From the IMG/VR virus record IMGVR_UViG_3300035684_000001, positions 62,001-126,000 of that record: a stretch of DNA of 64,000 nucleotides; one strand, written 5' to 3'. The position numbers and the translations under genes were made by a program. The notes below the pieces were generated by a model. That model was given only the letters and a program-made list of their open reading frames with translations. It searched no databases and was not told where the DNA came from. The stretch is from a virus. How positions within the stretch are numbered: the first letter of the stretch is position 1; every line of letters begins with the position of its first letter. This document shows, piece after piece, positions 514 through 63,599 of this stretch.

Positions 514-3500
514 TTAGTCGCCAAAGAAGTCGCTATCATCGTCGAAATCATTGAGACTGGTACTAACAGGTTCTTCGGCGTCATCATCGAAAAAGTCACT
601 GTCATCGTCAAAATCATTGCTAAAATCTTCGTCGTCATCGTCGTCGAAGAAATCGCTATCGTCATCAAAATCCTTGAATGTACAAAGATTTATTTCGTCA
701 TTTGTGTCTTCACGATCGCCCGCAAAGACTTCTACATCTATTGAAGCCAACTTTGGAAGTACAGCTTCACAGGAAGACATAACCCGATCCACCCAGTTGG
801 GCAATTGCTCTAGAAGTAGTTTTAATTCTTCTATCGTGTCACTGTCTACTCCCTCATAAGTGCAGGGAGAGTCGGTCTGCCAAAACTCATAAGTCTCAGT
901 AGGTTCTGATTCTTTAGGCTCTGGTTCTTTTTGTGACTCTGCTGGAGAGTCTTGTTCTTGGGGAACTTCTTGAGGATTTAATTGCTCTTCGAGTTCCACT
1001 TGCTCATCTAAGAGTTGCTTTAGTTCTTCGGCTCCTACGAAAGGAGTCGATAGTGCATCCCCCAAAGATTTATAGTTGGCGCGAGCCAGTCTTAACTCCT
1101 CCGTGGATGAGTCGATTTCTTTTTGAATCACATTGCAAATACTCTCAATGTTTAAAGATTCTACAATCTTCGTTCTGTTACTTGAGGGAAGAATGTAGCT
1201 TCCTTTTCCGCCCAGAATTAAATTTATCGAGAGGGTTCGCGGACTTAGTTCTGCGCGTAGTTGGTAATCAGCAAACTTGCCGATAACAGGATTGAATTTG
1301 TTGACCGCCGCAGGATTGTCTTTAATATTTCGCAGGTTATTTAGTTTTTCTGCGATTATCTTGCCAATTTCCTCGGCATTTTTCTTATTGTTATCGATTT
1401 CTTGACCCACCAAGAACAATTTCGGTTCGGCAGTTTTGACTTGTGCCAAATCTGCCTGCATCTTTTCGATCGAATCGCATAGAAAATCTATCCTTTTTAC
1501 GGACCTATCTAAGGCTACAGTGTTTTGATAGCGTTGCTGCTCGTATCCTCTTTGCTGAATCAGCAAAGAATTTACGAGGCGATCAACATCTATTTTGCGC
1601 TTGATGCATTCGTCACCGCTGGCGATCGCCATCATCGTTGCAGCAGAAGCTACAAACGGGTCGATGTCGTCGCTGGCGTTACCGGGAGCTTCTCCCGACA
1701 TCAAGAATTGGAACGATTCTAATTTCTGAAGGATTACCCCCCAGATGTAGGAATCGAAACCGGGTTTACCTTCCACGCCTTGAGTAGCGTAGCGGAAAAT
1801 AAACACGTTGTCGAACAAGTTACCTTGACGCACGATGCGCCCAGATCGCTGTTCGATATCTGAAGGCCTCCAAGGACAATCCATGTCGTGAACGGCCAGC
1901 AGTCGAGATTGGATGTTGACTCCGGTTCCCAGTTTTTGAGTCGAACCCAAAATAACTCGGATTTCACCGGAATTAACTTTTCCCATCATTTTTTTACGAG
2001 CGCTATCAGTTTTAGCGTCGTGGATAAAGGCTATTTCTTTGGCAGGAATGCCCAGCGCAATTAAAATATCGCGCAGGGAAGTGTACGCTTCAAAGATTTT
2101 GCCGTCTTTGGGTGTTGAGAAATCGCAAAAAATAGCTTGTGTTGCTTTTGCTGCGGTTCCCATTTTCCAAATACGGTATACGTTGAGGGCGCAAGTATTT
2201 ATTTTGTTAAAAATAAAGTCCTTGCCATCCTTCCACCGCAGCCGGATGTCGATACCGAAGGCGGCGCGGGCATCCGTGTAAACCTTTAGAGCATTGTCCT
2301 CGTCAGGTGTTACTAACCTCTTCTGAATGTAATGCAGTCGTTCAATCAGGTAGTTCATGTAAGCTGCCTGTTCGGTCGATGCCGGACATTCAACAGGGAT
2401 TATTTCGTGGTTGGGCGCTGGTAGAGCCAGCATTTTGGCTGATTGTACATCTACGAACGATCGCCACAGCGACATGAATACTTGTAAATTCACGATACCG
2501 CTGCACCGAGTTCGAGTTTTGTACCCAGTAGGAGTCTGTTCGGCGCTCGTCGTCAGATTGAAGAAAGTTGACAAACACGAATCGAAGGATTCAATGCCTG
2601 CTTTCTTCAGCATGGACGGCGCTAGATAGCGCATCATTGTCCAAGACTCGACCAGCGTGTTCGATACTGGTGTTCCTGTGGCAAAGACGACTTTCTTTTT
2701 CGTAGATAGCATCCACTGAACTTTCATATAGCAGTCAAAACTGCGAGACGTAAGTGTCCCGCCGTTCTTTCTGCTGTAGAAAGACGTGTTTGGTAGACCT
2801 GCTACGTTGGTTTGCCTCGTGTGATAAGGCAAGTTCTTAAAGGCGTGAGCTTCATCTATAAATAAAGCGTCAATCCCAGTTTGTTCGAGGTAGATTACCC
2901 CGTCTCCGTTTTGGTTGGCTGCTTCAATAGCTGCTGCAATCTTGGATTCGATCCTTTCTTTTGCTTTTGCAACTTGTTTGATCGATTTTTTGTCGCCACT
3001 TTCTATTGTTTCTAGTAAAAATTGATTGGCTATTTCTAGCTCTCTTTCTAGAAAAACAAGAGTTGATTCTGGCGACAGAGATATACCTGTCTTGAATTGA
3101 GTATGCGTGATTATCACGCAATCCCAATCTCCCATAGCTATTTCCGTACAAAACCGTTTGCGGTTGTCCGGCGACAGCGATTCTTGGGTTGACACTTTCA
3201 ATTTGGCAAATGGATACAACCGTCGAAACTCTGCTTCTATTCCTGAAATCGTAGAATTAAGAACCACGATCATGGGTTTATTTGCGAGTCCTAATCGACG
3301 TAACTCCATAGCGCTGGCGACCATTGCGGCGGTTTTGCCTGCTCCGACGGAGTGACTGTATAAAACAGATTCTTCTTGGAGCGTTCGCCAGATGGCGTTT
3401 TTCTGGTGCGATCGCCAGATAAAATCTGGATTAGCATCAGCGAGTGTTAATACTTCGCCTCGGTATTTGCGATCTACAAAGCAGTTAAACTGCTCGTTAT

Positions 3501-5790
3501 AGAGTCGCGTAATATGTTCGGCGCGATCAACATCGAGGTAAAGCCATTCTGCAAATTTTTGTTTGATTTCTTGCATTTTGGCTCTGGCATTTTCCGTTTC
3601 TTGTACGTTGACAACTGCTTTTTTGTCAACTATGTCTTTGATAACGGGGTCTTTTTGACTTAATCCCATTTCCAACAACGTTAAGAAATCAGCTTTTGGA
3701 GTACCCCATTGCTGCTTGTTTGCAGCGCTTCGGTCGATTGAGTAATAGGGTGTGATTCTATAGTAGTCGATCGGGTGCGGGATGTATGTGATTTCTACAG
3801 GTGCATCCATCAAATGAGATGCAAATTGCCCGTAGTAATGGGCTGGAACCCAAGTTGAGCCGAACAGAACTTGGTAATAGATCGAAATATCCGGTTCGCA
3901 CTTGGATGCTCCAATGCGGGTTGCAACTTCCGCTCTGGTTTCGGTACTGGCTTTTGGCAGAAAATATAGAGGTTGAATTAATTCCAGCGCTTCTATGTTT
4001 TTGAAATTGCCAGCCAACTGGGCGATCGCCAGTTTTTCTCGAACGTTGCCGCTGAGATACTCCTCAGCAGACACCCAGGTTGAGGTATTTGTGTCGAAGA
4101 AAGCTGACGAACTTTTTTCCAGTTCGTCGATTACCCCTTCGCCGCGCAGTTTGATTAGAAAATCGGTATCGATCGCCCCAAATTGATTTAGGGATAGAAT
4201 GATCGCGTCTTCGATTGAATCTGCGGACTCAGGAGTTATTTGCGGTGAAGCTGTACGCTTTGTGAATATGTCAGCTTTCGAGAAATGCTGTGTGCTTTTT
4301 AACAGATCTTTGAAGCTGTAGCCACACTGTTGTGTTGGAACCTCCAGCGCCATTAATAAATAGTATCGGGGGTCGCTACAGCAAATTTTGATGTTTGACG
4401 GGCTATTGAGATAGCCGTATTTTTTGATCCAGCGGTCGTAGGAATCGTTGAGATCCTTTCGACCTTCGATCAATCGATCTTTGTCTTGACCTTGTTGAGC
4501 CTTCAGAAGTTTTTCCAAATCTCCCCACAGCTTGAGCATGGAGTCAATTTTTTCAACTTCCTTGACTACTTCAAAGGCTTTAAATTCTCTTTTCTGCCAC
4601 AGTTTCTGGTTTTTCCAAAAAAAGTGATTGTGGGGGATGCAAGTGACCTCTGGGTCTGCCATTACAATTGTTTGAGTTTTTGCGGGTTCGTACTGCACGT
4701 CAAACTCTTTGAAGCAGCGGACTATTTCTTGCGACAAGTCGCGATCGTCACCTTTGAGGGCTATGCGTCCTCCGTATAATTCACACTCAGCAGATTCGCC
4801 GAGCATCATTGACGGATTGAACAAATAGTACCCGTTTAGAGGTAAATGCCTTACCTTTCCTAGGCTTTTTACATCACCTAGTTTGTCAAAAATTTCTTTA
4901 ATCCATTCGTTGTTTTTAGACTTGAGATGATCGGGCAGGAGGTGTGCAAATGTTTTTGCAAAAGGATCTCCCTTTACGATCGTCTGGATTACTGGTGATA
5001 CAGTCCAAACCTTATTTATACAAGGCTCTTTTTTGAACACCAAAATATCGGTTGTTATTTCCGTGTTCTCCTCCAGAAAAGTCGTATTTGGTAGGCGGAT
5101 TGCGCCTACTAATTCGACCGAATTACTGAGAAGTTCGCGGAAACCATTGCCACGGGCATCTAGAGTGCCTGACGTAGTTATCAGGACTATGAATCCGCCT
5201 GGGCGTACTAAATCCACTGACCTGTTAATAAAGTAGTTGTGGATATGTAAGTTCCCGATCTTGACATCTCCGAATGGGATGTTGCCGATCGCCAGATCGA
5301 ACAATCCCTCGCAATTAAAATCTTGAAATTTTTCGTTCACTATTTTTGCCTGCGGGTGAATCGCGTGGGCGATCGCTGCGGGAATGATATCCCGCTCTAT
5401 TCCAATCCAATCTATATCTAGATCGGGCGGAGCGCATTCAATAAACCGCCCAATACCGCACCCCGGCTCAAGGGCGTTAATTTTACCTCTCAAGCCGAGT
5501 GCGACTAATCCGTCCCACATGGCTTTTACCACGGGGAACGAAGTGTAATGGGCGTTAAACGTGGAAGCTTGCGCCTCTGCGTATTCTTTTTTTGTGAGCA
5601 ACGTTTGGAGTTCGTTGCGAATGTCTTGTCGCCATCCACATTTGGATGTATCAAAGACATCGGCGATCGCGCCCCAACCCGTAAATCTTGCAAGGATTGC
5701 TCTTTCTTCTTGCGAAGGGAGTTTTCCGCACAGAGATTTTAGGACTTGCACTGCTTTGAGGTTTGCACGTCCGATTGCTTCGTTATTCAT
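514..5790 (-). CDS. Giant DNA methyltransferase-helicase fusion (DarB/strawberry-notch-like)
   Basis: This 1,758-residue protein fuses an N-terminal adenine-type DNA methyltransferase to an SF2/SNF2-like helicase. Seen: a SAM-binding motif EPGCGIGRF near residue 110 and a catalytic NIPF (variant of NPPF) near 170. The helicase has a Walker A-like VGAGKT near 811, a DEAH box near 978, TGTPVSN near 1040 and an arginine-finger motif QRSGRIVRQG near 1318. A coiled-coil region follows, then a very acidic tail (about 1700-1758) with repeated DDDSDFF units. The architecture is that of the large methylase-helicases carried by conjugative plasmids and by phages, including P1 DarB, a virion protein that protects injected DNA from type I restriction. 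A protective role here is inferred. It has its own promoter, divergent from the next gene. Domain assignment is strong; the exact role is open. Confidence 0.85.
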   Translation of the reverse strand: MNNEAIGRANLKAVQVLKSLCGKLPSQEERAILARFTGWGAIADVFDTSKCGWRQDIRNELQTLLTKKEYAEAQASTFNAHYTSFPVVKAMWDGLVALGLRGKINALEPGCGIGRFIECAPPDLDIDWIGIERDIIPAAIAHAIHPQAKIVNEKFQDFNCEGLFDLAIGNIPFGDVKIGNLHIHNYFINRSVDLVRPGGFIVLITTSGTLDARGNGFRELLSNSVELVGAIRLPNTTFLEENTEITTDILVFKKEPCINKVWTVSPVIQTIVKGDPFAKTFAHLLPDHLKSKNNEWIKEIFDKLGDVKSLGKVRHLPLNGYYLFNPSMMLGESAECELYGGRIALKGDDRDLSQEIVRCFKEFDVQYEPAKTQTIVMADPEVTCIPHNHFFWKNQKLWQKREFKAFEVVKEVEKIDSMLKLWGDLEKLLKAQQGQDKDRLIEGRKDLNDSYDRWIKKYGYLNSPSNIKICCSDPRYYLLMALEVPTQQCGYSFKDLLKSTQHFSKADIFTKRTASPQITPESADSIEDAIILSLNQFGAIDTDFLIKLRGEGVIDELEKSSSAFFDTNTSTWVSAEEYLSGNVREKLAIAQLAGNFKNIEALELIQPLYFLPKASTETRAEVATRIGASKCEPDISIYYQVLFGSTWVPAHYYGQFASHLMDAPVEITYIPHPIDYYRITPYYSIDRSAANKQQWGTPKADFLTLLEMGLSQKDPVIKDIVDKKAVVNVQETENARAKMQEIKQKFAEWLYLDVDRAEHITRLYNEQFNCFVDRKYRGEVLTLADANPDFIWRSHQKNAIWRTLQEESVLYSHSVGAGKTAAMVASAMELRRLGLANKPMIVVLNSTISGIEAEFRRLYPFAKLKVSTQESLSPDNRKRFCTEIAMGDWDCVIITHTQFKTGISLSPESTLVFLERELEIANQFLLETIESGDKKSIKQVAKAKERIESKIAAAIEAANQNGDGVIYLEQTGIDALFIDEAHAFKNLPYHTRQTNVAGLPNTSFYSRKNGGTLTSRSFDCYMKVQWMLSTKKKVVFATGTPVSNTLVESWTMMRYLAPSMLKKAGIESFDSCLSTFFNLTTSAEQTPTGYKTRTRCSGIVNLQVFMSLWRSFVDVQSAKMLALPAPNHEIIPVECPASTEQAAYMNYLIERLHYIQKRLVTPDEDNALKVYTDARAAFGIDIRLRWKDGKDFIFNKINTCALNVYRIWKMGTAAKATQAIFCDFSTPKDGKIFEAYTSLRDILIALGIPAKEIAFIHDAKTDSARKKMMGKVNSGEIRVILGSTQKLGTGVNIQSRLLAVHDMDCPWRPSDIEQRSGRIVRQGNLFDNVFIFRYATQGVEGKPGFDSYIWGVILQKLESFQFLMSGEAPGNASDDIDPFVASAATMMAIASGDECIKRKIDVDRLVNSLLIQQRGYEQQRYQNTVALDRSVKRIDFLCDSIEKMQADLAQVKTAEPKLFLVGQEIDNNKKNAEEIGKIIAEKLNNLRNIKDNPAAVNKFNPVIGKFADYQLRAELSPRTLSINLILGGKGSYILPSSNRTKIVESLNIESICNVIQKEIDSSTEELRLARANYKSLGDALSTPFVGAEELKQLLDEQVELEEQLNPQEVPQEQDSPAESQKEPEPKESEPTETYEFWQTDSPCTYEGVDSDTIEELKLLLEQLPNWVDRVMSSCEAVLPKLASIDVEVFAGDREDTNDEINLCTFKDFDDDSDFFDDDDDEDFSNDFDDDSDFFDDDAEEPVSTSLNDFDDDSDFFGD

Positions 5791-8921: not shown

Positions 8922-8930
8922 TGGTACAAT
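8922..8930 (+). promoter_or_regulatory. Extended -10 promoter of the tape measure gene (TGgTACAAT)
   Basis: An extended -10 overlaps the first possible TTG start (8921) of the giant reading frame. That makes 8921 an unlikely start, because transcription should begin near 8937. The leader downstream carries the 8961-8983 hairpin. Confidence 0.6.
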
Positions 8931-8960
8931 TCAATGAAACTAATATATCACGCTACGCAG

Positions 8961-8983
8961 GCCACCCCACCCAATGGGGCGGC
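8961..8983 (+). promoter_or_regulatory. 5' leader hairpin of the tape measure gene
   Basis: GCCaCCCCA (8961-8969) pairs with TGGGGcGGC (8975-8983) around a 5-base loop. It is followed by TTTTGTTGTTT, a GGGGGG run (8995-9000) and a TTG at 9005. The order hairpin, T/G-rich stretch, Shine-Dalgarno, start is the same as before the S74 fibre gene at 37863-37912. It may be an attenuator or an mRNA-stabilising 5' hairpin. Confidence 0.6.
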
Positions 8984-9004
8984 TTTTGTTGTTTGGGGGG
9001 AATT

Positions 9005-12000
9005 TTGGAAGAGAGTCTGGATCGGTACGGCTTAGTCGGTCAGTTTAATTTCTTAGTTGCAGACGGCAGTTTTTCTTCCATGAAATCTGTTGTCAAACAC
9101 CTGAGCAACATGGAGAAGGCTGTTGCAGACGCTTCCAAATCCGTAGACAGCAACGGGCTAGCAGGTCAATTTAAATCTGCAGCCCGATCGCTCGACACCT
9201 CCTCCGGCAACATGGCAAAGAGCTTGCAGCCTTTAAAAGCTGAGTTTAGGGTGTTAAAAGCTACTGCGGCAAATATTGATTTTGGAGATGTGCTGGACGA
9301 TCGCCAGTTCAAAAAAGCTACAACTGCTGTCAACACTTACGTTAAAAATCTCAAAGAATTAAGAAAGCAAGTTCAGGGCGAAACGGCAGCGGAGCGGGAG
9401 TTTACGGAAGTCCTCAAACGGCAGCAGCGCGTTATTAAGGACAAACTTGCTTTGCACGATGCTGAGCGCAAGGCTGCGTTTTTCTCTCAAAGAAAGGGTG
9501 AGTTTGGGGCGCTGCAACAAGTTGGGAATATAGCACTCAATCCGCTGAAGCAAGCCGGAAAAGAAGCCATTCAAGTTTTTGCTGGTTTTGACGACAAGAT
9601 GAGCGCGGTGGCAGCTATCTCGCGATCAACGGGCAAGGATTTAGATCGGTTGCGGGGTAAGGCTAAGTTATTGGGGGCGACGACTCGATTTACCGCAGGA
9701 GAGGCTGCGGATGCCGAAAAATACTTGGCGGCAGCGGGCTTTAACGCTCAACAGATTTTTGCAGGCGTTCCTGCAACTTTGGATTTAGCTTCGGCGGGAC
9801 AACTGGGATTGGCGGAATCGGCTGACATCGCTTCCAACGTGCTCAGCGGGATGCGGATGGGCGTTAGCGATTTAGGTCACATTACCGATGTTATGGCGTT
9901 GTCGGCTGCTAGCGCAAATACCAACATTCAGCAGTTGGGTGTAGCGATGAGCTACGCTGCTCCCAATGCTGCACTGTTTGGTGCGGGAATAGAAGAAACC
10001 TCTGCTTTAATTGGGGTGATGTCAAATGCGGGGATTCAGTCCGACAAGGCAGGAACGGCTGCAAGAGGAGCTTTTTTAAAGTTGGCCGCACCTACGGTCA
10101 GAGGTCGAATGGCTTTAATTCAATATGGAATTTCGCTGACCGACACCAGCGGTAAAATGCGGAATATCGTTGATGTGATGCAGGATATCGGTACAAACCT
10201 GCAATTAGATCCAGCTTCTTTAGACTCGATAATTCAAGCTGGCGATGACGTAGAAAAACTGGGACAACTTGCCCAGTCAAAGCAAATTTCTGCATTAAAA
10301 GATATTTTTGGCACAACTGGAATTTCGGGGGCATCGGCCGCAATCAGCCAAATGCAAGAATTTACTCGTCTGAGTTTGGCGGGTAGGGGCAGCTCTTTTG
10401 CTATTGAAGACTACGAAAAATTATTTAAATCTCAGGGTATTGATAAATTAGCCACAGATAAAGATGTTTTCGCTTCGCTGCTGCGAGAAGCGGGCAGCTA
10501 TCAAGATGCGCTACAAAAATTAGATGCTGCTACGATCGCCTTAGTTAAATCCAATGAATATTTAGGAAATCTTTCGAGCACCCAGCTAAGTCAATTGTCA
10601 GGATATTTCCAAATACCCGAAGGTGAGAATTTATTTGATGCGATTTTGGCGACTGCTCCCGACGCGAATGCGGCAGTCAGCAAGCTAACCTCAGCGATGG
10701 GCGAATTAGGGATTGAATTTAAGGGAAAATCCGGCGCAGCGAAAACGATGGCGCAGGTGATGGAAAACAACCTGGCCGGTTCTTTCCGATCGCTCGGTTC
10801 TGCGTTTGAAGCAGTTCAGGTCAATTTGATCGAACCGATCGCCCCAATCGTGCGGGCGATCTCCGACACATTAACTAAGTTGCTGCTGGCGATCGCCAAC
10901 CTTCCTTCCCCAATTCGAGGATTGATTGCCGGAGTTGGGGTGCTTACCGCAGGGTTTGCAGCGGTATCGGTTGCAGTCGGAACAGTTGGTGTAGTGCTGT
11001 TTGGATTTTCGCAAGCTGCGGCAACCGCGACTGCTGCGGGAATTGCACTGCAAGCTAGCGTGATTCCGCTGACCGGATTTTTCCCGGCGGCGATGGCGGC
11101 TTTTGAGGGTACGGCGTCCAACCCGTTCAAGACTGCCTCGTTTGCTGCGGAAGCTTTTTCGGACACGATCGCCTCTACGTCCAAAGATGTCAACTTGGGA
11201 TTGAACGGGATTGCTCGAAATATTGCGGTAGTTTCGAGGTCGCTGATTTCGATGTCGGTATCGTTTGCTCTGTCTCCAATGGGAATCGCGATTGCAAGCT
11301 TCCTTGCACTTAATGCTATTTTGCAACAAATTAACCCAGAAATTAATTTGCTGGGTACTATTTTCAGCGCCGTCAGTTCCATCGCTGGTTTTGCAGTTGG
11401 AATAATTCAAGGATTTGGCGAAGCGCTGCTCGCTGCACTAGATGTTCCAACATCTGTTGCAGGTTCGATGTTGACCGCTCCGTTTGCAGCAGTCAGCAGC
11501 GCTATAGAATATGCAACTGTGGCTTTTGAAACTTGGCGGAAATCCGGGCGGGCGATCGGGGTCGATATTTTTAAATTTGTAGCGCAGCCGTTTCAGCTTG
11601 CAGGCAGGGCGATCGAGACTTCATGGAACTTCACACTGAACTATATCAAGGGCTTGCTGACGCCTTTTGCTGGCTTCGTAGCTCGGATTGGCAAATTGCT
11701 GCAAGGGGGTCTAGCTGAGGCATCGCCGGGTCCGACCTACATGATTCGGGAAAAGTGGGATTACACGATCGCCTTTTTGGAAAAGCTGTTCACCAGAATT
11801 AGAAACGCTGCAGGTTTAGTTAATCGGGCTTTTTTAGGTATTGGAAGTGTAACAGAATCCTCGAAGATGGAAGCTCAGCAACAAATATTGCAAGGGGCGA
11901 TCAATTTAGTTACTAACTCTGTCAAGAAGCTTTCGGTTATTGGGGGAACTATTACTCAAATCCAGCAATTTGAGCGAAGTATTATTGATGGAGTTAGAGA

Positions 12001-35042: not shown

Positions 35043-35073
35043 AAACCCCTTCTGGGATACCCAGAAAGGGTTT
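35043..35073 (-). promoter_or_regulatory. 5' leader hairpin of the histidine kinase operon
   Basis: AAACCC...TTCTGGG (35043-35056) pairs with CCCAGAA...GGGTTT (35060-35073), a 13-bp stem with one mismatch and a 3-base loop. It lies between the -10 box and the ATG at 35025. Confidence 0.65.
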
Positions 35074-35092: not shown

Positions 35093-35098
35093 ATTATA
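35093..35098 (-). promoter_or_regulatory. -10 box of the histidine kinase operon
   Basis: A perfect TATAAT on the minus strand, 68 bases upstream of the preferred start. The 35111-35157 palindrome occupies the -35 position. Confidence 0.6.
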
Positions 35099-35110: not shown

Positions 35111-35157
35111 GTTGGTGGCAATGTTGGGCGACCGGGCTACCCAATATTGCCACCAAC
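35111..35157. repeat. 47-bp near-perfect palindrome upstream of the kinase promoter
   Basis: GTTGGTGGCAAT-G-TTGGG pairs with CCCAA-T-ATTGCCACCAAC, an 18-bp stem including one G-T pair, around an 11-base centre. No T run follows on either strand, so it does not look like a terminator. A protein-binding operator is possible. Confidence 0.7.
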
Positions 35158-35745: not shown

Positions 35746-35771
35746 CCCTGCCTGGGATTCCCTGAGCAGGG
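35746..35771 (+). promoter_or_regulatory. Terminator-like 5' leader hairpin of the lysin gene
   Basis: CCCTGC (35746-35751) pairs with GCAGGG (35766-35771), with an inner GGG-CCC stem. TTTTTTATTT follows directly and then the ATG at 35782. The preceding AAACACACGCCC matches the leader of the spike gene. A second small hairpin (GACCG/CGGTC) lies at about 35704-35720. Confidence 0.65.
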
Positions 35772-35781
35772 TTTTTTATTT

Positions 35782-37296
35782 ATGGAAGAAACGAAAACTA
35801 AACCGATCGCCCCTGCAACGCCCGCGACTAAGCCGATCGCCCCCGCCGCGCAGCAACCGACGCAGCAATCCTACCCGACACCGGAGGATGTAAAAAAAGT
35901 TTTGCCTCAGTTCGACCTTGACTCGATCCGGAAAAACTTGCCTTACATTCTAAGGGCGATGAACGAAGCTGGGTTGAAATCAAAGAATCAACTTGTTGGC
36001 ATCATTGCCACAATGGGAACGGAAACCCTTAATTTTACGCCAGCATCGGAAATAGGGCCGGGAAGCTCCAGCGTTGAAGGTGGATCAAATTTCAGGGGCC
36101 GTGGATATATACAATTGACCCACACCTACAATTACGAGATGTTTGGGAAGTTGTTAAACTTGCCTCTGCTGCAAAATCCAGAATTAGCCGGACAGCCAGA
36201 AATTGCAGCAAAGATAGCAGTAACTTATTGGCAAGGAAAGCACAATGCCGCTCAAAACTGTCAAGTATCTGCTGAGGCACAAGATTGGCACGAGGTAAGG
36301 CGAAAAATCCAAGGAAATCCCAACGGTCACGACAACGATTTCGGGAGAACCTTCAAGCCCGCGATTGATCGCGCAATGGCAATTTTTAAATCCGGGATCG
36401 ATGGGATGCCAGCCCTCCCGGGCAACACCGGCGCAACCGATTTTGATACCGGAGGAGCACCCGCAGTTACGATGGTCGGTCAGCACAACCCAACCAGTCA
36501 ATTAGGGGCGATGGAAGCGGCGCTGGGATTGATGGCCCTGGACTCCCACAAAACCCATATTGCTCAATTCTATTTAGACCTTCACGGTCAGCCCGATATT
36601 TTAAAGTTAGATGCCGGATTGACATTTGAAGCGCGGGGGCTGGGAGAAGGACTGGACGATACTTATACTGTGGAAGAAGTTCTGTTCCTTTTTGGCGATC
36701 GCCTCGAAGCAGAAGTAACTGCTTTCAAGCCCGATCCTAATGCAAAAATTCAAATGTTCCGGGGTGATGCTTCCAAACCGGATGCCCCGCAGAAACATCA
36801 AGCCGCTCCAGAAAGCGCGATCGCTCAGACTGTCACGGTAAGCGGAATGCCAGTTTCAAAGCAGGGGTGGCGATCTCCTATGGATATTAAGGGAAATTCA
36901 GTTATAGACGTGGGTGAATATGGAAGTGCTAGGGGACGGCATCATGCAGGAATTGATTACGGTGGACATGGTTCCGGTTCAGATCCAGATGCAGTTTTTG
37001 CAGCTAAATCGGGAAAAGTTACAATAGTCAAAACCGACATGAGTGGTGGAGCCGGGCGGATGGTTCGGATCGATCACGGAGATAATACAGAATCTGTATA
37101 CATGCACTTAGCGATGCCAATTTTGGTAAAAGAAGGTCAATCTGTCCAATCTGGTCAAAAAATTGCTACAAGAGGTGGATCTGGATTTGGTTCTGAAAGC
37201 GGATATGCAATTCACTTACATTTTGGAGTTTATATTAACGGTCAAGATGTAAATCCTCGCGACGTTCTTCCTCATCCTCAAGTAGCAAGAGCTTAA
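35782..37296 (+). CDS. Tail-associated lysin: GH19 chitinase/lysozyme-like plus M23 peptidase
   Basis: 504 residues. After a Pro/Ala-rich linker, residues about 40-210 form a GH19 lysozyme-like domain (FRGRGYIQLTHTYNY, NPNGHDNDFG) expected to cleave glycan strands. The middle (about 230-340) is unassigned. Residues about 360-500 form an M23 metallopeptidase with the zinc ligands in HHAGIDYG and HLHFGV, expected to cut peptide cross-links. Two activities in one protein fit penetration of the thick cyanobacterial peptidoglycan by the tail tip or lysis at release. No signal peptide or holin neighbour is visible, which favours a virion role. It opens a tail/fibre gene series. Confidence 0.9.
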   Translation: MEETKTKPIAPATPATKPIAPAAQQPTQQSYPTPEDVKKVLPQFDLDSIRKNLPYILRAMNEAGLKSKNQLVGIIATMGTETLNFTPASEIGPGSSSVEGGSNFRGRGYIQLTHTYNYEMFGKLLNLPLLQNPELAGQPEIAAKIAVTYWQGKHNAAQNCQVSAEAQDWHEVRRKIQGNPNGHDNDFGRTFKPAIDRAMAIFKSGIDGMPALPGNTGATDFDTGGAPAVTMVGQHNPTSQLGAMEAALGLMALDSHKTHIAQFYLDLHGQPDILKLDAGLTFEARGLGEGLDDTYTVEEVLFLFGDRLEAEVTAFKPDPNAKIQMFRGDASKPDAPQKHQAAPESAIAQTVTVSGMPVSKQGWRSPMDIKGNSVIDVGEYGSARGRHHAGIDYGGHGSGSDPDAVFAAKSGKVTIVKTDMSGGAGRMVRIDHGDNTESVYMHLAMPILVKEGQSVQSGQKIATRGGSGFGSESGYAIHLHFGVYINGQDVNPRDVLPHPQVARA

Positions 37297-37830: not shown

Positions 37831-37862
37831 TGTCCTAAAAAATAAATAATTTGCTATGTCAG

Positions 37863-37883
37863 CCGTCCAAACCTTTTGGGCGG
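37863..37883 (+). promoter_or_regulatory. 5' leader hairpin of the S74 fibre gene
   Basis: CCGtCCAA pairs with TTGGgCGG (8 bp including a T-G pair) around ACCTT. It is followed by TTGTTGTCGTTT, AGGAG and ATG at 37910, the same order as the tape measure leader. Confidence 0.65.
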
Positions 37884-41391: not shown

Positions 41392-41448
41392 CAAAAATTA
41401 AGCAATGTTAAGTAGATTTTTTAAGAGCATTCTGATACACTAAAAAAA

Positions 41449-41478
41449 AGCGGGCGCTTTTAGAGAAGCGACCCCGCT
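41449..41478 (+). promoter_or_regulatory. 5' leader hairpin of the 816-aa gene
   Basis: AGCGGG pairs with CCCGCT and inner CGCTT with AAGCG. The hairpin comes directly after a GATACACT -10-like box and an A run. AAGGA lies before the ATG at 41506. Confidence 0.6.
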
Positions 41479-44209: not shown

Positions 44210-45757
44210 ATGAAATACAATCCGATCGCCAAACAAAACCAAATTAGTTGCGGGACTGGAAATGTTGCGGTAATTACCGGGTGGACGCCAGCACAAGTTA
44301 TAAAGGAAAAATTAAGTCTGCAAGACTACGGGGCGATCGGGCAACTGTATTCCCCCACTCGCGGTATTAATTTTTTGGTAAAGAACTTGTTGGCAAATCC
44401 TCAAATTAGGCATTTAGTATTGCTCAGCGCTACTGAAGCAGACAGAAACAGCGGCGCAATCGAAGTTTTTTTGTGGTTTTTACACTATGGATGCGAGAGA
44501 GGAGTTACAGATTTAGGACAAAAAGCATGGGTTATTAACTGCAACTGCAAAGAAAATAAGGATAGCAACAATTTATCTTTTCAGGGTAAGGGTTACATAG
44601 ACGCTGAAATTCCTGAACCGGATTTAAATTTGCTCAGAAAATCTCTGTCATGGGTCGTTGTCAGCAAAATCCAAGATTGCATTAACGAGGTGTGGGGTGT
44701 GCCAAAGAATACTGTACCTTGGGGGCTACCCAAAAATTATCCGGCTCCAGAACAAGAAGTGCCAAAAGTTATCCCGGGCGATCGGTACGGGCATCGGATT
44801 GAAGGCAAAACAATTGCCGAAACGTGGGTAAAGATCGTCCACCGCATTAAAACCACGGGAACTGTTAGACCAACAGGTTATGACGGTCACTGGCAAGAGT
44901 TAATTGACTTAATGGCGATCGTCACCGACGAACCCAAAGAATTCTATTTCCCAGAGCCGAATTACCTGTCGTGCGATCGCGCTTTTGTTGAAAAATATCG
45001 ATCGCAAATTTTAGAAGATACGCCCTACGAGGAAGGTGTTAAATATACCTACGCGCAGCGGATGCGGTCGTGGTTTGGATGTGATCAGATTGAAGAAGTT
45101 ATCAACAAGCTAATTAAAGAGATTGACGCAGCAAGTGCTGTAATTAGCTTGTGGGATTCAGGCGGGAATCTTTATAGAAGACCTGATGGTTCTTCCGATC
45201 ACCAGCACAGCGGTAGCCCTTGTTTAAATCAAGTTTGGGTGCGAGTCGTCAATGATGAAATGTCGATGACAGCGATCTTCCGCAGTAACGATATGTTTAG
45301 TGCATGGCCGGCTAATGCTATGGGGTTGCGGGCGTTGCAGCAACACATTCGAGACGAAATAGCTGGGCGATCAAGTTACGACTTAAAAATGGGACCGCTA
45401 ATCACTATCAGTCAAAGCGCTCATATTTACAGTGACTGCTGGGACTACGCAGATAAATTGATTACAGAACACTACGATCGCCTCGCAAAGAAAGAAGCGA
45501 GATCGTTTGCAGACCCTATTGGGAGTTTTTTGATATCAGTAAATAACAAAAACCAGTTAATTGAAGTCGAACACATTTCACCGAGTCCAGGTGATGAACC
45601 TCTTCAGTTTTTTGCTGGAAAAGACCCACAGGAGTTGGGTGTTCAAATCCTGAAAGCTTGCCCCGGAATACTAGCTTCCCATTGCTTGTACTTAGGAATT
45701 CAACTTAAAAAAGCATCCCAGTGTGCAATGAACGGGCTATCTTACACCCAAGAATAA
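44210..45757 (+). CDS. Thymidylate-synthase-like protein with N-terminal DUF4346-type domain
   Basis: 515 residues. Residues about 1-150 resemble the DUF4346/MtrA-like domain found fused to ThyA-like proteins in cyanobacteria and archaea. Residues about 190-515 show a ThyA-like fold: GSPCLNQVWVRV provides the candidate catalytic cysteine and FRSNDMFSAWPANAMGLRAL corresponds to the ThyA RSxD substrate-binding motif. Such proteins may methylate or hydroxymethylate dUMP or a related pyrimidine; the exact product cannot be read from sequence. The leader contains AAACACAAAACAAA. The MazG-like gene follows after three bases, suggesting a nucleotide metabolism operon. Confidence 0.8.
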   Translation: MKYNPIAKQNQISCGTGNVAVITGWTPAQVIKEKLSLQDYGAIGQLYSPTRGINFLVKNLLANPQIRHLVLLSATEADRNSGAIEVFLWFLHYGCERGVTDLGQKAWVINCNCKENKDSNNLSFQGKGYIDAEIPEPDLNLLRKSLSWVVVSKIQDCINEVWGVPKNTVPWGLPKNYPAPEQEVPKVIPGDRYGHRIEGKTIAETWVKIVHRIKTTGTVRPTGYDGHWQELIDLMAIVTDEPKEFYFPEPNYLSCDRAFVEKYRSQILEDTPYEEGVKYTYAQRMRSWFGCDQIEEVINKLIKEIDAASAVISLWDSGGNLYRRPDGSSDHQHSGSPCLNQVWVRVVNDEMSMTAIFRSNDMFSAWPANAMGLRALQQHIRDEIAGRSSYDLKMGPLITISQSAHIYSDCWDYADKLITEHYDRLAKKEARSFADPIGSFLISVNNKNQLIEVEHISPSPGDEPLQFFAGKDPQELGVQILKACPGILASHCLYLGIQLKKASQCAMNGLSYTQE

Positions 45758-53063: not shown

Positions 53064-56000
53064 TTACCTACTAGAAGAATTTGTTGATGATTCTAAGACG
53101 ATAAGTCTAGAAAGTATCGAACCTATCGATAGCTGAATCTCGCTTATTATTGAAAGATTTACGCCATCAACAAAAACACCATCCTCGTTTATTTCGATTT
53201 CATGCAACGTTTCAGGTTCCATTCCTTCTTTAGGGTCAGACAAAGATCGGAAAATAACTTTTTTCCCCTGAATATACACAACTTCTGGCGTACATAAAAC
53301 TTCATTACAAAAAGAACCATCTTCATTAAACGATTGGATATGTGCATTGCGACCTTGAAGCGCAAACCTTGCCGCCTGTTTATCCCAGACAATCGGTTCT
53401 TCTGGTTTATCATCATCATCGTCATTGTCGTCAATCTCAACCGGGGGCTTATTGTGATCGCCAGAAAAGAATGAACTTAGCGACAGCAACCCGCTCTTGG
53501 GATCGAGCAAGACTCCCACACCTTTGGAACCGTCCTCAGAGCCGTTGCGGAACACAGTTGTACCGATTGACGACAAGGATGTTCCAGATCCGCCCATGCT
53601 CAGCATTCCGCCCAGACCTTTAGAAAGTAATTTCTTAGGACTAATGCTCAGAGAAACCTTGCCCCCAGGCCCGAGTAACTTTGTCACCTTCCCTAACATC
53701 TGAAGCCCCGATTTGCCGTCCATACCCAAAAGTTTCAATCCTTGTTCAGCCATCGCCATTTGAGAACCACCGGGTCCTAACAGTTTCACAAAATCCATGC
53801 CGATTTGCATCGCCTTTTTCCCGTCAGGACCCAACAGCTCAGCAACTTTCTCGGCAAGCTTCAATTTAGAAACTCCATCTGCTCCTACCAACTGAGAGTA
53901 AGTTTTTACCATTTCCAGCAGTCCTTTACCCGACGGACCGAGCATTTTAGCGAGTTCTTGCGTAACAACCGTCATTGCCCCCTCCTTACCGCCAGCCCAA
54001 ACAGTTGCCGATTTTTCATCGGCAAAGATATTTGTGCGGATCAACTCCCCGATCGCATCCTCGACTTGCGGACCCAGTAATTCCCCTATTTTTTCGTTGA
54101 CGTAGCTGATTGCAGCTTTCTCACCCGCACCTTTCATGCCGATGTCATTTTCCCAAGCGAACATTTCTGTCCTGACTTTTTTGCCATCTTTCTCAATGGC
54201 TGGGCCAAGGATTCCCGATTTTACTGGATCGACAAAGCTACAAGCACCATCCCCGCCAGATTTCATTGCCACAGTTCCATTTTTTTCAGCACACATGGAA
54301 CTTCTTAGTTTAGATTTTTTTGGTTTTTCTAACTCTTTTTCCTTTGCTTCACCTCCTTTTTCCATTGACTTTGCAACAAAAGGAGTGAACTTAAATCCAG
54401 CAAAATCGCTAGGCGGCTCATAATCATCGTCGTCCTGAGTTGCATCGTTGCGAATTGGAGACAGCATTTCTGCACGATTTGCCCCAACAACTGTCATAGC
54501 TCCCTCGCCCGGAGCAAACATAGCTGTTTCTTCGGATGCTGCCTGCATCCCCGATCGAGTCTTTTCTCCATTGATTTCAATCGCCGGTCCGTGCATTCCA
54601 CTTTTGGTTTCATCCGCTGAAAAGCAAGCTCCGTCACCGCCAGATTTACCGCCTACCAATCCTTTCCGATCGGCAAACAGACAAGTCCTCAATTTTTTCT
54701 TGGCTTCTGCATCTGCAAATTTGCCCGTTTTACCTTCTTCCCGATCGCCCCCCTTCTTAAATTTGACCGACTTGAGGTCAAATTCAAACCCATCATAGTC
54801 GCTGGCGGGAGGATCGTCTTGTTCATCTTTAAACTCGCCTTCTTCTCTTTCTGGACCAAGAACTTCTGCCCGATCGCGCGCAACGTAAGATATTGCACCG
54901 TCAGCAGCCTCGCTTCCTGCTTCCTGAGCGAATACAAAACTACCAGTCCGCAGTTTTTTACCGTCTAATTCAATTTCCGGACCGAAAGTCTCGGCTTTTT
55001 CTAGGTGGACGATCGATCCCGCGCCGCGTCCTCCCGATAAAGTTCCAGCCCCGCCGTAACCGTCCGCGAATAAGGAAGTTCGTACCATCCGGTCTTTTTC
55101 TTCTAGATCGTCGTACTTGGGCCGCTTTTTAGCTTCTTCCTGTTCCCCACCTTGTTTGCGACGCTGCCCTTTAGAAAATATTTTGTAACCACCTTTTTTA
55201 CCTTTACCTGGTTTATCTTCCTCGCGTTCTGGTAATTCCCCATCTTTGCGTTCCGGTCCTAGAATCTCTGCCATGCGTCGCTCTACGCGAACGCCGCCGC
55301 CTTTATCCCCTGCGGTCATACCTCCGCCAGCTTTGTCGGCAAACATAGACACTCGAAGGTTGGGAGCAAATTCCGGACCCATTATCTGAGCACCTTCTTT
55401 GCCAATGCGGGCGATCGCCCCTTTCTCACCGCGATTTGACTCCATCTGCACGTAAGTTTCGCGGGCAGTAATCCTAGCCCCTTTGGGTTCGTCGGGTATT
55501 GCGCGAAGGAGTTTGCTGTAGTCGTCGATTGCCGACTCTAGAATTGGAATCAATTTTTGCGCCAGTTCTTTGCAAGATTTAGGCAATACTTTTTCTACAG
55601 CATTTTGCAGGATATCATCGGAACTGTTGGTGATTGCAAAATGCTTGGCAACTTCTTTGAGCGGTTCAACCAGTATGTCTTTGTTAAAAAGTACGTCATC
55701 TCTAAGCAATAGAAATGCCAAAGCTTCTAACGGTGCAATCCCTTTGATACTTTTCTGCCCCTTCAATACTGCACTTAAAGTTTTTTCGGTTTTTTCAATT
55801 AATCCTTGAGTTACTTCCCCAAATAGTATTGATAGTGGAGATTCCCCCGCCACCAATTTATCCACGTTTTTTTTATCTTCTTCGATTTGTTTCGCTTCTC
55901 GATCTTTGTCGGCTAGCTGTTCTTTTGTCAAAAATTTAGCAGCTTTTAAATCTTGATTGCTGAACACCCGAGAAACTGCTTGTTCCGTCAAGGTTTCGTC

Positions 56001-57470
56001 GCCTTTGTGTAACTGGTAAACGCCCATATTGCCCTTAGCAAATTCAGAATATTCCCCGAGCTGCCCGATCGCCCCTTCTACCCTTTCCGGCAGCTCGTCC
56101 CACCACTCTTTCTCTTCTTTGATAGTAAATTTTTCTAAACGCTCTGGCTTGGGATTGATGGTATCTTCCATACCTTTGATTTTGTCCTGCAATCGCATTC
56201 TGACGATCGCGTCAATCGAATGCCAACCGTTCGGCACTATCTCGGCTATTAGTGCTTCCTTCTGCAAAACAACGTCGTACCTCAGCGCGTCCAGTGTGGG
56301 TACAATCGCGTCCAACCTTGCAAACAGAGCCTTTTTTTCCTCAGCGTCTAGCAGTGCCAGCAGTTTTTTGAGATCCTTCGGTATCATCCCCAGTGCTGTT
56401 CCGACGATCGCGCTGCCGGGTTTATCCTTGGCGACTGATTTTTCTGCGATGTTAACTATTTTGTCTAATTCAATTCTCAAAGCTTCTCGCAGTTGACCGT
56501 CTAAGCTTTCGCCCAGATCGACAGCAGGGGCTGTCTTTAGTTCCTGCAAGATTCCAATTCCTTTTGGCAGGTTCACCGCTACCCCATCTCGCAGCCTCCG
56601 CAAAACTGCATTAGCTTCGTAAATATAGTGCGACGTGCCAAATGCTCCGCTTTCAAAACCGTCAGTCAGTTTTTCTAGTTGTTTTAACAGTTTGACCCCT
56701 TGATCTAAATCTGCCGATAAAAATCCCCTAGCTTCAGAGAGCAAACGCGAATGGCGGCGCAAGGGTCCTTCTAAATGTGCATTTTTGCTGTTCAGACTTA
56801 ACTGAGATTTTTCGGCGCAGGCGATGGTAAGCGTCCCGTCTTTATTCAAATTAATGGCAGCACCGCCGAGCGATCGCGCGTTCAGATTCCCTTCCGGCGA
56901 TGCAGTGAAACTGGCATTGTCGTTCTCGATGCTCGCAGCGCCGTCTTTCATCAAATGGACTCTAGCCTTGCCCGGTGATTCTTGGAGGATAGAACCATCT
57001 CCAGAAACCGACTGAACGGCTTTACTCGCAAAAGTCTTGAAATAGGAGCCATCTTTGTCGTTGTTGATTTCAATCGTCCCGCCTGCCGACGCGCTGCCTG
57101 TGACTCCGTGCGATCGGTCGAAGTCTGGATGCGGGCGATCAACTCGGTTGTGCAAACACCCCATTATTATCAGTCTGGTAGGGTCGCCAAACATCGGACT
57201 TAAAACAACCAAACTCCCTAATCCCAGCGGACTGTGAGAACCTCCGGGTACGCCATTTGCCGTGAATTGTTCCATTACCGGAATCCAGCCGTCATCTTCG
57301 TTAGGTAGATAAGCAGTTTCGGAAAGCAAGTCACATTTGACTCTGGCGCGACCGATCTTCTCTGGATCGTTTACGTCTACGACTGTTCCCGGCATCCAGC
57401 CCATAACAAAGCCTTCTTTGATGTGCGTTGCCTGGACTTTTTCTGGCGTTATTTTGGATTCAAAGCTCAT
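53064..57470 (-). CDS. Giant baseplate spike protein (gp5/VgrG-like)
   Basis: 1,468 residues; most gp5/gpV spikes have 200-600. Residues about 20-110 form the OB fold (GWMPGTVVDVNDPEKIGRA, LVVLSPMFGDPTRLIIMGC). A beta stretch with repeated SxxNDKDGS-like turns follows (to about 235), then a long helical insertion (about 240-690). Then come imperfect repeats of LGPE/LGPxxxDGKK, RTxMFA and GGxGA (about 690-1290), and a beta tail ending LESSTNSSSR. The repeats fit an intertwined beta-helix needle. The protein should be a trimer at the tail tip that punctures the cell. The start lies behind a terminator-like leader hairpin. A relic of a second copy of its 3' end lies at 51332. Confidence 0.88.
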   Translation of the reverse strand: MSFESKITPEKVQATHIKEGFVMGWMPGTVVDVNDPEKIGRARVKCDLLSETAYLPNEDDGWIPVMEQFTANGVPGGSHSPLGLGSLVVLSPMFGDPTRLIIMGCLHNRVDRPHPDFDRSHGVTGSASAGGTIEINNDKDGSYFKTFASKAVQSVSGDGSILQESPGKARVHLMKDGAASIENDNASFTASPEGNLNARSLGGAAINLNKDGTLTIACAEKSQLSLNSKNAHLEGPLRRHSRLLSEARGFLSADLDQGVKLLKQLEKLTDGFESGAFGTSHYIYEANAVLRRLRDGVAVNLPKGIGILQELKTAPAVDLGESLDGQLREALRIELDKIVNIAEKSVAKDKPGSAIVGTALGMIPKDLKKLLALLDAEEKKALFARLDAIVPTLDALRYDVVLQKEALIAEIVPNGWHSIDAIVRMRLQDKIKGMEDTINPKPERLEKFTIKEEKEWWDELPERVEGAIGQLGEYSEFAKGNMGVYQLHKGDETLTEQAVSRVFSNQDLKAAKFLTKEQLADKDREAKQIEEDKKNVDKLVAGESPLSILFGEVTQGLIEKTEKTLSAVLKGQKSIKGIAPLEALAFLLLRDDVLFNKDILVEPLKEVAKHFAITNSSDDILQNAVEKVLPKSCKELAQKLIPILESAIDDYSKLLRAIPDEPKGARITARETYVQMESNRGEKGAIARIGKEGAQIMGPEFAPNLRVSMFADKAGGGMTAGDKGGGVRVERRMAEILGPERKDGELPEREEDKPGKGKKGGYKIFSKGQRRKQGGEQEEAKKRPKYDDLEEKDRMVRTSLFADGYGGAGTLSGGRGAGSIVHLEKAETFGPEIELDGKKLRTGSFVFAQEAGSEAADGAISYVARDRAEVLGPEREEGEFKDEQDDPPASDYDGFEFDLKSVKFKKGGDREEGKTGKFADAEAKKKLRTCLFADRKGLVGGKSGGDGACFSADETKSGMHGPAIEINGEKTRSGMQAASEETAMFAPGEGAMTVVGANRAEMLSPIRNDATQDDDDYEPPSDFAGFKFTPFVAKSMEKGGEAKEKELEKPKKSKLRSSMCAEKNGTVAMKSGGDGACSFVDPVKSGILGPAIEKDGKKVRTEMFAWENDIGMKGAGEKAAISYVNEKIGELLGPQVEDAIGELIRTNIFADEKSATVWAGGKEGAMTVVTQELAKMLGPSGKGLLEMVKTYSQLVGADGVSKLKLAEKVAELLGPDGKKAMQIGMDFVKLLGPGGSQMAMAEQGLKLLGMDGKSGLQMLGKVTKLLGPGGKVSLSISPKKLLSKGLGGMLSMGGSGTSLSSIGTTVFRNGSEDGSKGVGVLLDPKSGLLSLSSFFSGDHNKPPVEIDDNDDDDDKPEEPIVWDKQAARFALQGRNAHIQSFNEDGSFCNEVLCTPEVVYIQGKKVIFRSLSDPKEGMEPETLHEIEINEDGVFVDGVNLSIISEIQLSIGSILSRLIVLESSTNSSSR

Positions 57471-57482
57471 AAAACAAAAAAA

Positions 57483-57504
57483 CCGCCAGAGAGAAACCTG
57501 GCGG
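57483..57504 (-). promoter_or_regulatory. Terminator-like 5' leader hairpin of the spike gene
   Basis: On the minus strand CCGCCAG pairs perfectly with CTGGCGG around 8 bases, followed by TTTTTTTGTTTT and the ATG at 57470. AAACACACGCCC precedes the hairpin, as in the lysin leader. No Shine-Dalgarno sequence is visible. Confidence 0.7.
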
Positions 57505-57553
57505 GGCGTGTGTTTAATTTTTGGTAGGGCGGGCGATCGGGTGGGCGATCGGG

Positions 57554-58042
57554 CTAGCTATTTAGTTCGTCGATGTCATCGCGGTTAAATTGCAGCCCAC
57601 GTCGAAATTCCTCTTGAGTCCAATCTCGAACATGGGGATTTACTGTTCCGAATTCCTGCATTTGTGATAACCACAGACTGATCCGAGCAAAAAAGCGAGC
57701 ATCTGACATAGAATAAGCAAACGCTACAGATGGGTGAACAAAGATAGATCCTTCATCACCTCTAACGTAGTCTATCAAAGCTTTTGAGCGACTACTCATT
57801 TCTGAGTACCCGCTCTTAACGGCTAATTCTGTGTCAGCATTAGCGACTGGCAGACCCGTTAAAAGTGAAAGCTCTTCTAACACATCTTTTGCAAACTGAG
57901 TTCTAGTCCAATTGTTGAACCGCTTTCCGATCGCCTTACTGATGTCTCGAACAGACACATACCCATCCTTGCCTCGAATTTCAATTTTTTGACCGTTGTA
58001 CTCAGGAAATTGATCGAACCATGATACCATTGCTTTAGACAT
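57554..58042 (-). CDS. KilA-N domain protein
   Basis: 162 residues. GYVSVRDISKAIGKRFNNW and SIFVHPSVAFAYSMS with ARFFARISLWLSQM are the signature of the KilA-N DNA-binding domain, which occupies almost the whole protein. KilA-N proteins are frequent in phages and are thought to act as regulators or antirepressors. It precedes the spike gene on the same strand by about 84 bases, including the spike leader. The C-terminus (RRGLQFNRDDIDELNS) is acidic. Confidence 0.85.
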   Translation of the reverse strand: MSKAMVSWFDQFPEYNGQKIEIRGKDGYVSVRDISKAIGKRFNNWTRTQFAKDVLEELSLLTGLPVANADTELAVKSGYSEMSSRSKALIDYVRGDEGSIFVHPSVAFAYSMSDARFFARISLWLSQMQEFGTVNPHVRDWTQEEFRRGLQFNRDDIDELNS

Positions 58043-63531: not shown

Positions 63532-63562
63532 AGGAAGTACGACTGTCCAGGTCGCGCTTCCT
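63532..63562 (-). promoter_or_regulatory. 5' leader hairpin of the replication-like gene
   Basis: AGGAAG pairs with CTTCCT and CGAC with GTCG around CTGGACA, directly after a TATACT -10 box (63572-63577) and an A run. The order is the same as before the 816-aa gene. Confidence 0.6.
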
Positions 63563-63599
63563 ATTTTTTTGAGTATAATCGATGATCGCCATTTGCGCT

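Follow-up and report, generated by a model that had tools for sequence, protein, structure and literature searches.

A conserved U-tailed hairpin leader with a probable role in guarding or marking late-gene transcripts throughout a cyanophage genome

Do the hairpins found just ahead of several structural and regulatory genes of a large cyanophage belong to one family of 5' leaders, and what could such leaders do? The DNA analysed (the window, 64,000 nucleotides) spans positions 62001-126000 of a 188,553-base viral record and represents one third of a cyanophage genome of about 188.5 kb. This record has a close relative, IMGVR_UViG_3300036939_000082 (188,942 bases); the two are collinear over nearly the full length, mostly at 75-90% identity, with the relative in reverse orientation and circularly permuted. 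The window also encodes a 1758-aa protein (514-5790, minus strand) with a strong match to DarB-like antirestriction/methyltransferase-helicase families, and a 515-aa protein (44210-45757) combining thymidylate synthase with a C-terminal PterinBD-DUF4346 domain.

A first-pass annotation had proposed that seven genes share the order -10 box, short leader, strong hairpin and start codon: those for the tape measure protein (TMP), a histidine kinase, a lysin, an S74 fibre, an 816-aa protein, a spike and a replication-like protein. All seven stem-loops are present, and all are kept in the relative, which is 80-84% identical. Compared with dinucleotide shuffles of leaders of 63-75 nt, the histidine kinase, 816-aa, spike, S74 and replication-like hairpins are clearly more stable (z of -6.4, -3.4, -3.0, -2.9 and -2.6, respectively). 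The lysin hairpin is borderline (z -1.8, 17/300 shuffles), and the energy of the TMP hairpin is not separable from that of shuffles (z -0.9, 56/300) because the whole TMP leader is GC-rich. No Rfam family matched the window at gathering score.

The seven leaders do not share one architecture. RNAalifold found zero base pairs common to all of them, and a covariance model built from the seven, the check that had been proposed, retrieved no more than six of the seven, plus one ordinary terminator. The set instead divides in two. TMP, lysin, S74 and spike stand together as a family in which stem and U-tract end 7-24 nt ahead of the start codon:

8960..8983, plus strand: TMP leader hairpin, followed by TTTTGTTG; 6319-aa ORF, likely start TTG 9005
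35746..35771, plus strand: lysin leader hairpin, followed by TTTTTTATTT and ATG; GH19/M23 lysin gene at 35782-37296
37861..37883, plus strand: S74 fibre leader hairpin; gene start ATG 37910
57483..57504, minus strand: spike/base-V leader hairpin, followed by TTTTTTTGTTTT and ATG; gene at 53064-57470

The histidine kinase, 816-aa and replication-like hairpins are of another kind, unrelated to this family and devoid of a U-tract. The family model (R1), trained on 22 sequences corresponding to 11 leaders in each of two close phages, finds none of them on the sense strand. These three genes have -10 boxes of their own, which are good and mostly conserved:

35043..35073, minus strand: histidine kinase 5' hairpin; start ATG 35025; no U-tract and no match to R1
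35093..35098, minus strand: histidine kinase -10 box TATAAT, kept in the relative
41436..41441, plus strand: -10-like box TACACT of the 816-aa gene, TAGACT in the relative
41449..41478, plus strand: 816-aa gene 5' hairpin, with a tail that is A-rich rather than T-rich
63532..63562, minus strand: replication-like gene 5' hairpin; start ATG 63503; no clear U-tract
63572..63577, minus strand: replication-like gene -10 box TATACT, kept in the relative

The box is thus visible for these three genes and for neither lysin nor spike, and a box common to all seven is not demonstrated. Compared with the relative, none of the 14 pairs of the histidine kinase hairpin is broken, and the 816-aa hairpin shows one compensatory and one broken pair. 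The -10 box of the histidine kinase gene is closely preceded by an 18-bp inverted repeat (35111-35157) that the relative does not conserve.

Scanning the whole record revealed about 16 members of the U-tailed family in the 188-kb genome, each laid out as a GC stem-loop followed by a U-tract, with 7-31 nt between the stem and the start codon. The original list of seven was therefore incomplete: four of its entries are members, and at least 12 further members lie outside the window. The coordinates below use window numbering, so that negative values and values above 64000 fall outside it:

-54996, -50519, -47981 and -47104, minus strand: upstream of the window; lytic transglycosylase/M15 peptidase, 578-aa, 159-aa and RusA resolvase genes
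8960, 35746, 37861 and 57483 (the last on the minus strand): within the window; TMP, lysin, S74 and spike
67389, 77780, 82993, 85350, about 87998, 89487, 91218 and 93859: downstream of the window; tail sheath operon, 738-aa core protein, two small genes, portal, 548-aa protein between portal and capsid, major capsid and C39-type endolysin

The distribution of these leaders bears out the proposal that they precede late or core genes and not accessory ones: 11/16 leader genes are core, compared with 26/178 of the others (p 7e-6). Wherever a function can be assigned, it is in the virion, in packaging or in lysis, in agreement with the suggested late-gene signature. The annotation had named as evidence against this signature a lack of enrichment of such hairpins at the element's other late genes; the enrichment is there. 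R1 detected the lysin leader (E 0.035) although this leader is outside its training set. It also matched two leaders used for training, those of TMP (8949-8991, E 1e-6) and S74 (E 2e-5).

Conservation between the two close phages follows the predicted structure. Among 18 leaders, bases changed at 35/372 stem positions (9%) and 29/121 loop positions (24%; p 1e-4). Out of 186 stem pairs, 154 are unchanged, 14 changed on one side and 4 changed on both sides still pair, and 13 are broken; in the lysin stem, the tip is conserved and the base partly broken. The U-tract is kept after nearly every family stem. Conservation extends into the 5' flank, where identity is 84-88% at positions -15 to -1 from the stem, near the level of the hairpin, as compared with 63-72% at -60 to -26.

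The distant relative was the phage-plasmid pC052_F (NZ_CP040278.1, 223 kb) of the cultured strain Nostoc sp. C052, which has ParA/ParB annotated and encodes a tape measure protein of 8170 aa; its capsid and portal are 37.5% and 47.5% identical to those of the window's phage. The top three R1 matches in this plasmid are the leaders of the sheath operon (which opens with a 109-aa gene), the portal and TMP (E 2e-5, 7e-4 and 0.04), the last being homologous to the TMP leader described above; no other match there falls below E 0.05. Of the pC052_F genes homologous to leader genes, only around half carry a leader themselves, which counts against a late-leader role. Across 250 kb of control sequence, R1 produced one match below E 0.05, at the 3' end of a gene in phage N-1 (E 0.005), so lone R1 matches are not proof.

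Searches of the phage collection with capsid, portal or spike proteins returned no close relatives. Searches with the sheath protein added three viral contigs (62, 59 and 107 kb), in which the cyanobacterial repeat GCGATCGC occurs 67-102 times, and two contigs from cyanobacterial metagenome-assembled genomes. In these remaining relatives, the best R1 match lies ahead of the 738-aa homologue (E 0.22), indicating that the model's sequence component fails to reach so far. Leaders recur in the distant relatives before homologues of the portal, TMP, 548-aa, 738-aa and sheath-operon genes; beyond pC052_F this conservation is suggestive but falls short of significance, and the leader excess in the three smaller viral contigs is not significant. 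At most three lineages are useful for comparing leaders, and because gene calls came from a simple hexamer-based script some starts may be wrong, as exemplified by the portal start in two genomes. U-tailed hairpins without a preceding A-tract occur at 8.2% and 9.4% of genes in the close phages and 5.7% in pC052_F. The corresponding counts are 0/70 genes in 100 kb from two further plasmids of Nostoc sp. C052, 0/43 in phage CL131, 1/48 in N-1 and 3/42 in the initial 50 kb of the Ma-LMM01 genome.

Leaders also appear to have been duplicated as units, as indicated by stretches shared between them and by a tripled spike leader. The 578-aa and 159-aa genes have 30 identical bases in common in their leaders, and the leaders of the lysin and of a 726-aa peptidase agree at 18/19 bases near stem and start. 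In the close relative, positions 105134-106079 (opposite window 57400-57620) hold three copies of the spike leader around an inserted ORF, and the leader together with the first ~40 spike codons is duplicated around the insert. A KilA-N ORF precedes the spike gene in the window (57554-58042), and its 3' end resembles the sequence ahead of the relative's lysin gene, as if a KilA-N gene and its leader had moved between late genes.

The 7-31 nt between stem and start codon imply that the promoter must be upstream of the hairpin and that the mRNA must include it. Promoter signals were sought in 43 leaders (close duplicates removed), with 106 gene-end terminators of the same genomes for comparison; the two classes were sorted by gene positions only, flanking bases being unused. 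TATAAT-like sigma-70 -10 boxes were not enriched upstream of the stems (51% of the 43 leaders, 42% of shuffles), and a -10 box is therefore not established for the U-tailed family. The T4 late motif TATAAATA was not above controls (24/43 leaders, 67/106 terminators), and N4-type hairpin promoters were set aside because stems and loops vary in sequence. An unguided motif search upstream of the leaders gave motifs barely above shuffles at width 8 and not above them at width 12. After correction for all trinucleotides and offsets, ATA exactly 12 nt ahead of the stem (9/43 leaders, in three lineages) reached p ~0.05 and CAA at -3 reached p ~0.001. The distances of the ATA-bearing leaders to the start codon (9-28 nt) and to the upstream stop (29-454 nt) vary. 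If this ATA belongs to a -10 element, transcripts would start at the edge of the stem. Sigma-70 region 2 had no match in the window's phage or its close relative; the one match is in pC052_F, which encodes a sigma-70 family factor (NZ_CP040278.1, 168861-169808).

Collectively, these comparisons suggest that the U-tailed leader, a conserved genome-wide element in a group of large cyanobacterial viruses, probably guards or marks transcripts of late genes. We tentatively favour, with a probability of about 0.4, a late leader that would stop upstream transcription and then stay as the 5' hairpin of the late mRNA. The module at the start of some 16 late operons comprises a short conserved flank (a weakly phased ATA about 12 nt ahead of the stem, then a C/T-rich stretch), the GC stem-loop, the U-tract and the start codon. 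Late-operon transcription would begin at the stem's 5' edge. Towards polymerase arriving from early or plasmid-state genes, the hairpin would act as a one-way intrinsic terminator and keep the late genes silent; in the late transcript, it would form a 5'-terminal stem-loop slowing decay from that end. Under this mechanism, polymerase would have to get past a terminator-like site shortly after initiating, which counts against it. We infer promoter position, termination, stabilisation and passage of the U-tract from the sequences.

The leaders might instead be nothing more than intrinsic terminators serving the preceding unit and close to the next gene by chance, the late genes being expressed by partial read-through or from promoters farther upstream. 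Stem and U-tract are indeed terminator-like, a same-strand gene ends within 100 nt upstream of 29/43 leaders, and many lie 19-57 nt past a same-strand stop, so that some could be ordinary terminators. The distance to the start codon is no tighter than random placement in short intergenic gaps would give, and was rejected as evidence for a leader. However, an A-tract precedes the stem in 76/106 terminators and in only 8/43 leaders (p 4e-9), and leaders carry pyrimidines at -6 to -3 (p 2e-11 against terminators); with the A-tract mostly missing and this C/T-rich flank, the leader differs from the terminator type that these genomes use in other places. In 14/43 leaders, no same-strand gene ends within 100 nt upstream, the upstream gene being divergent or distant, as for TMP, S74 (stop 132 nt away), the 738-aa gene and TMP of pC052_F; since the gene upstream of the window's TMP is divergent, that hairpin is not the terminator of a preceding same-strand gene. 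The 15-nt flank is conserved, and several of the same late genes retain leaders over large divergence. We consider this explanation somewhat unlikely.

Attenuation, the first of the roles suggested in the first-pass annotation, would place the start of late RNA farther upstream, with early termination at the U-tract until a phage antiterminator allows passage. The U-tract after nearly every stem and the late-gene distribution would fit, but no NusG-like protein was matched in six records and no conserved antiterminator loading site was seen beyond the 15-nt flank, and we regard this as unlikely. Less probable still is a translational role, whether the hairpin and U-tract beside an AUG lacking a Shine-Dalgarno sequence offer the ribosome (S1) a site in the U-tract, or the hairpin prevents translation of late genes from early read-through RNA, as happens in T4. 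Many leader genes do lack a Shine-Dalgarno sequence, with the U-tract abutting the AUG, and there are precedents in the T4 late genes e and soc and in the seg43(25) hairpin of an Aeromonas phage (PMC2988022). Yet the start region is outside the stem in most leaders, and U-tracts are absent from the other genes of the window's phage that lack a Shine-Dalgarno sequence. The retained U-tract, unneeded for stabilisation alone, would point to a terminator component and favours the leader that ends upstream transcription and supplies a 5' stem.

It is also conceivable, though doubtful, that a lineage of large cyanobacterial phage-plasmids marks late operons by a transferable leader cassette fusing promoter, one-way terminator and protective 5' stem; late genes would then stay off while the element is a plasmid, and no phage sigma factor would be needed to turn them on. 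In large cyanophages without known late sigma factors, a leader recognisable in sequence makes late-gene timing a testable question. The family flags late operons in uncultured phage-plasmids, and the carrier of pC052_F is a cultured strain.

Among known elements, intrinsic (Rho-independent) terminators share the GC stem, the U-tract directly after it and the sense-strand orientation; unlike them, the leaders precede start codons of late operons, lack the A-tract and have a conserved C/T-rich 5' flank. Ma-LMM01, a freshwater cyanophage without gp55, has late promoters resembling SigA sites (PMC5780444). This unrelated phage (AB231700; transcriptome published) has strong hairpins 9-36 nt before genes 066, 088, 093 and 064. 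It resembles the present phage in having a few leader hairpins, but these are not systematic, and R1 detects no member of the family in it (one weak match, E 0.39). The protective 5' stem-loops of the ompA/papA type (Emory 1992 and Bricker 1999, cited in PMC3997798) would be similar in placing a stem at the 5' end of the mRNA, if transcription starts where the flank suggests. They differ in that a U-tract is no feature of their type; the host here is cyanobacterial. Hairpins are also found in T4-type late-gene leaders (e, soc, I-TevI and segB, and seg43(25) of Aeromonas phage 25; PMC2988022), likewise beside a late promoter or just upstream of a late-gene start. In T4, the ribosome-binding site is part of the stem, within which late transcripts begin, whereas the stem described here ends upstream of the start region (PMC2988022). 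The seg43(25) hairpin, albeit a single case, is the nearest to the leader in layout (PMC2988022).
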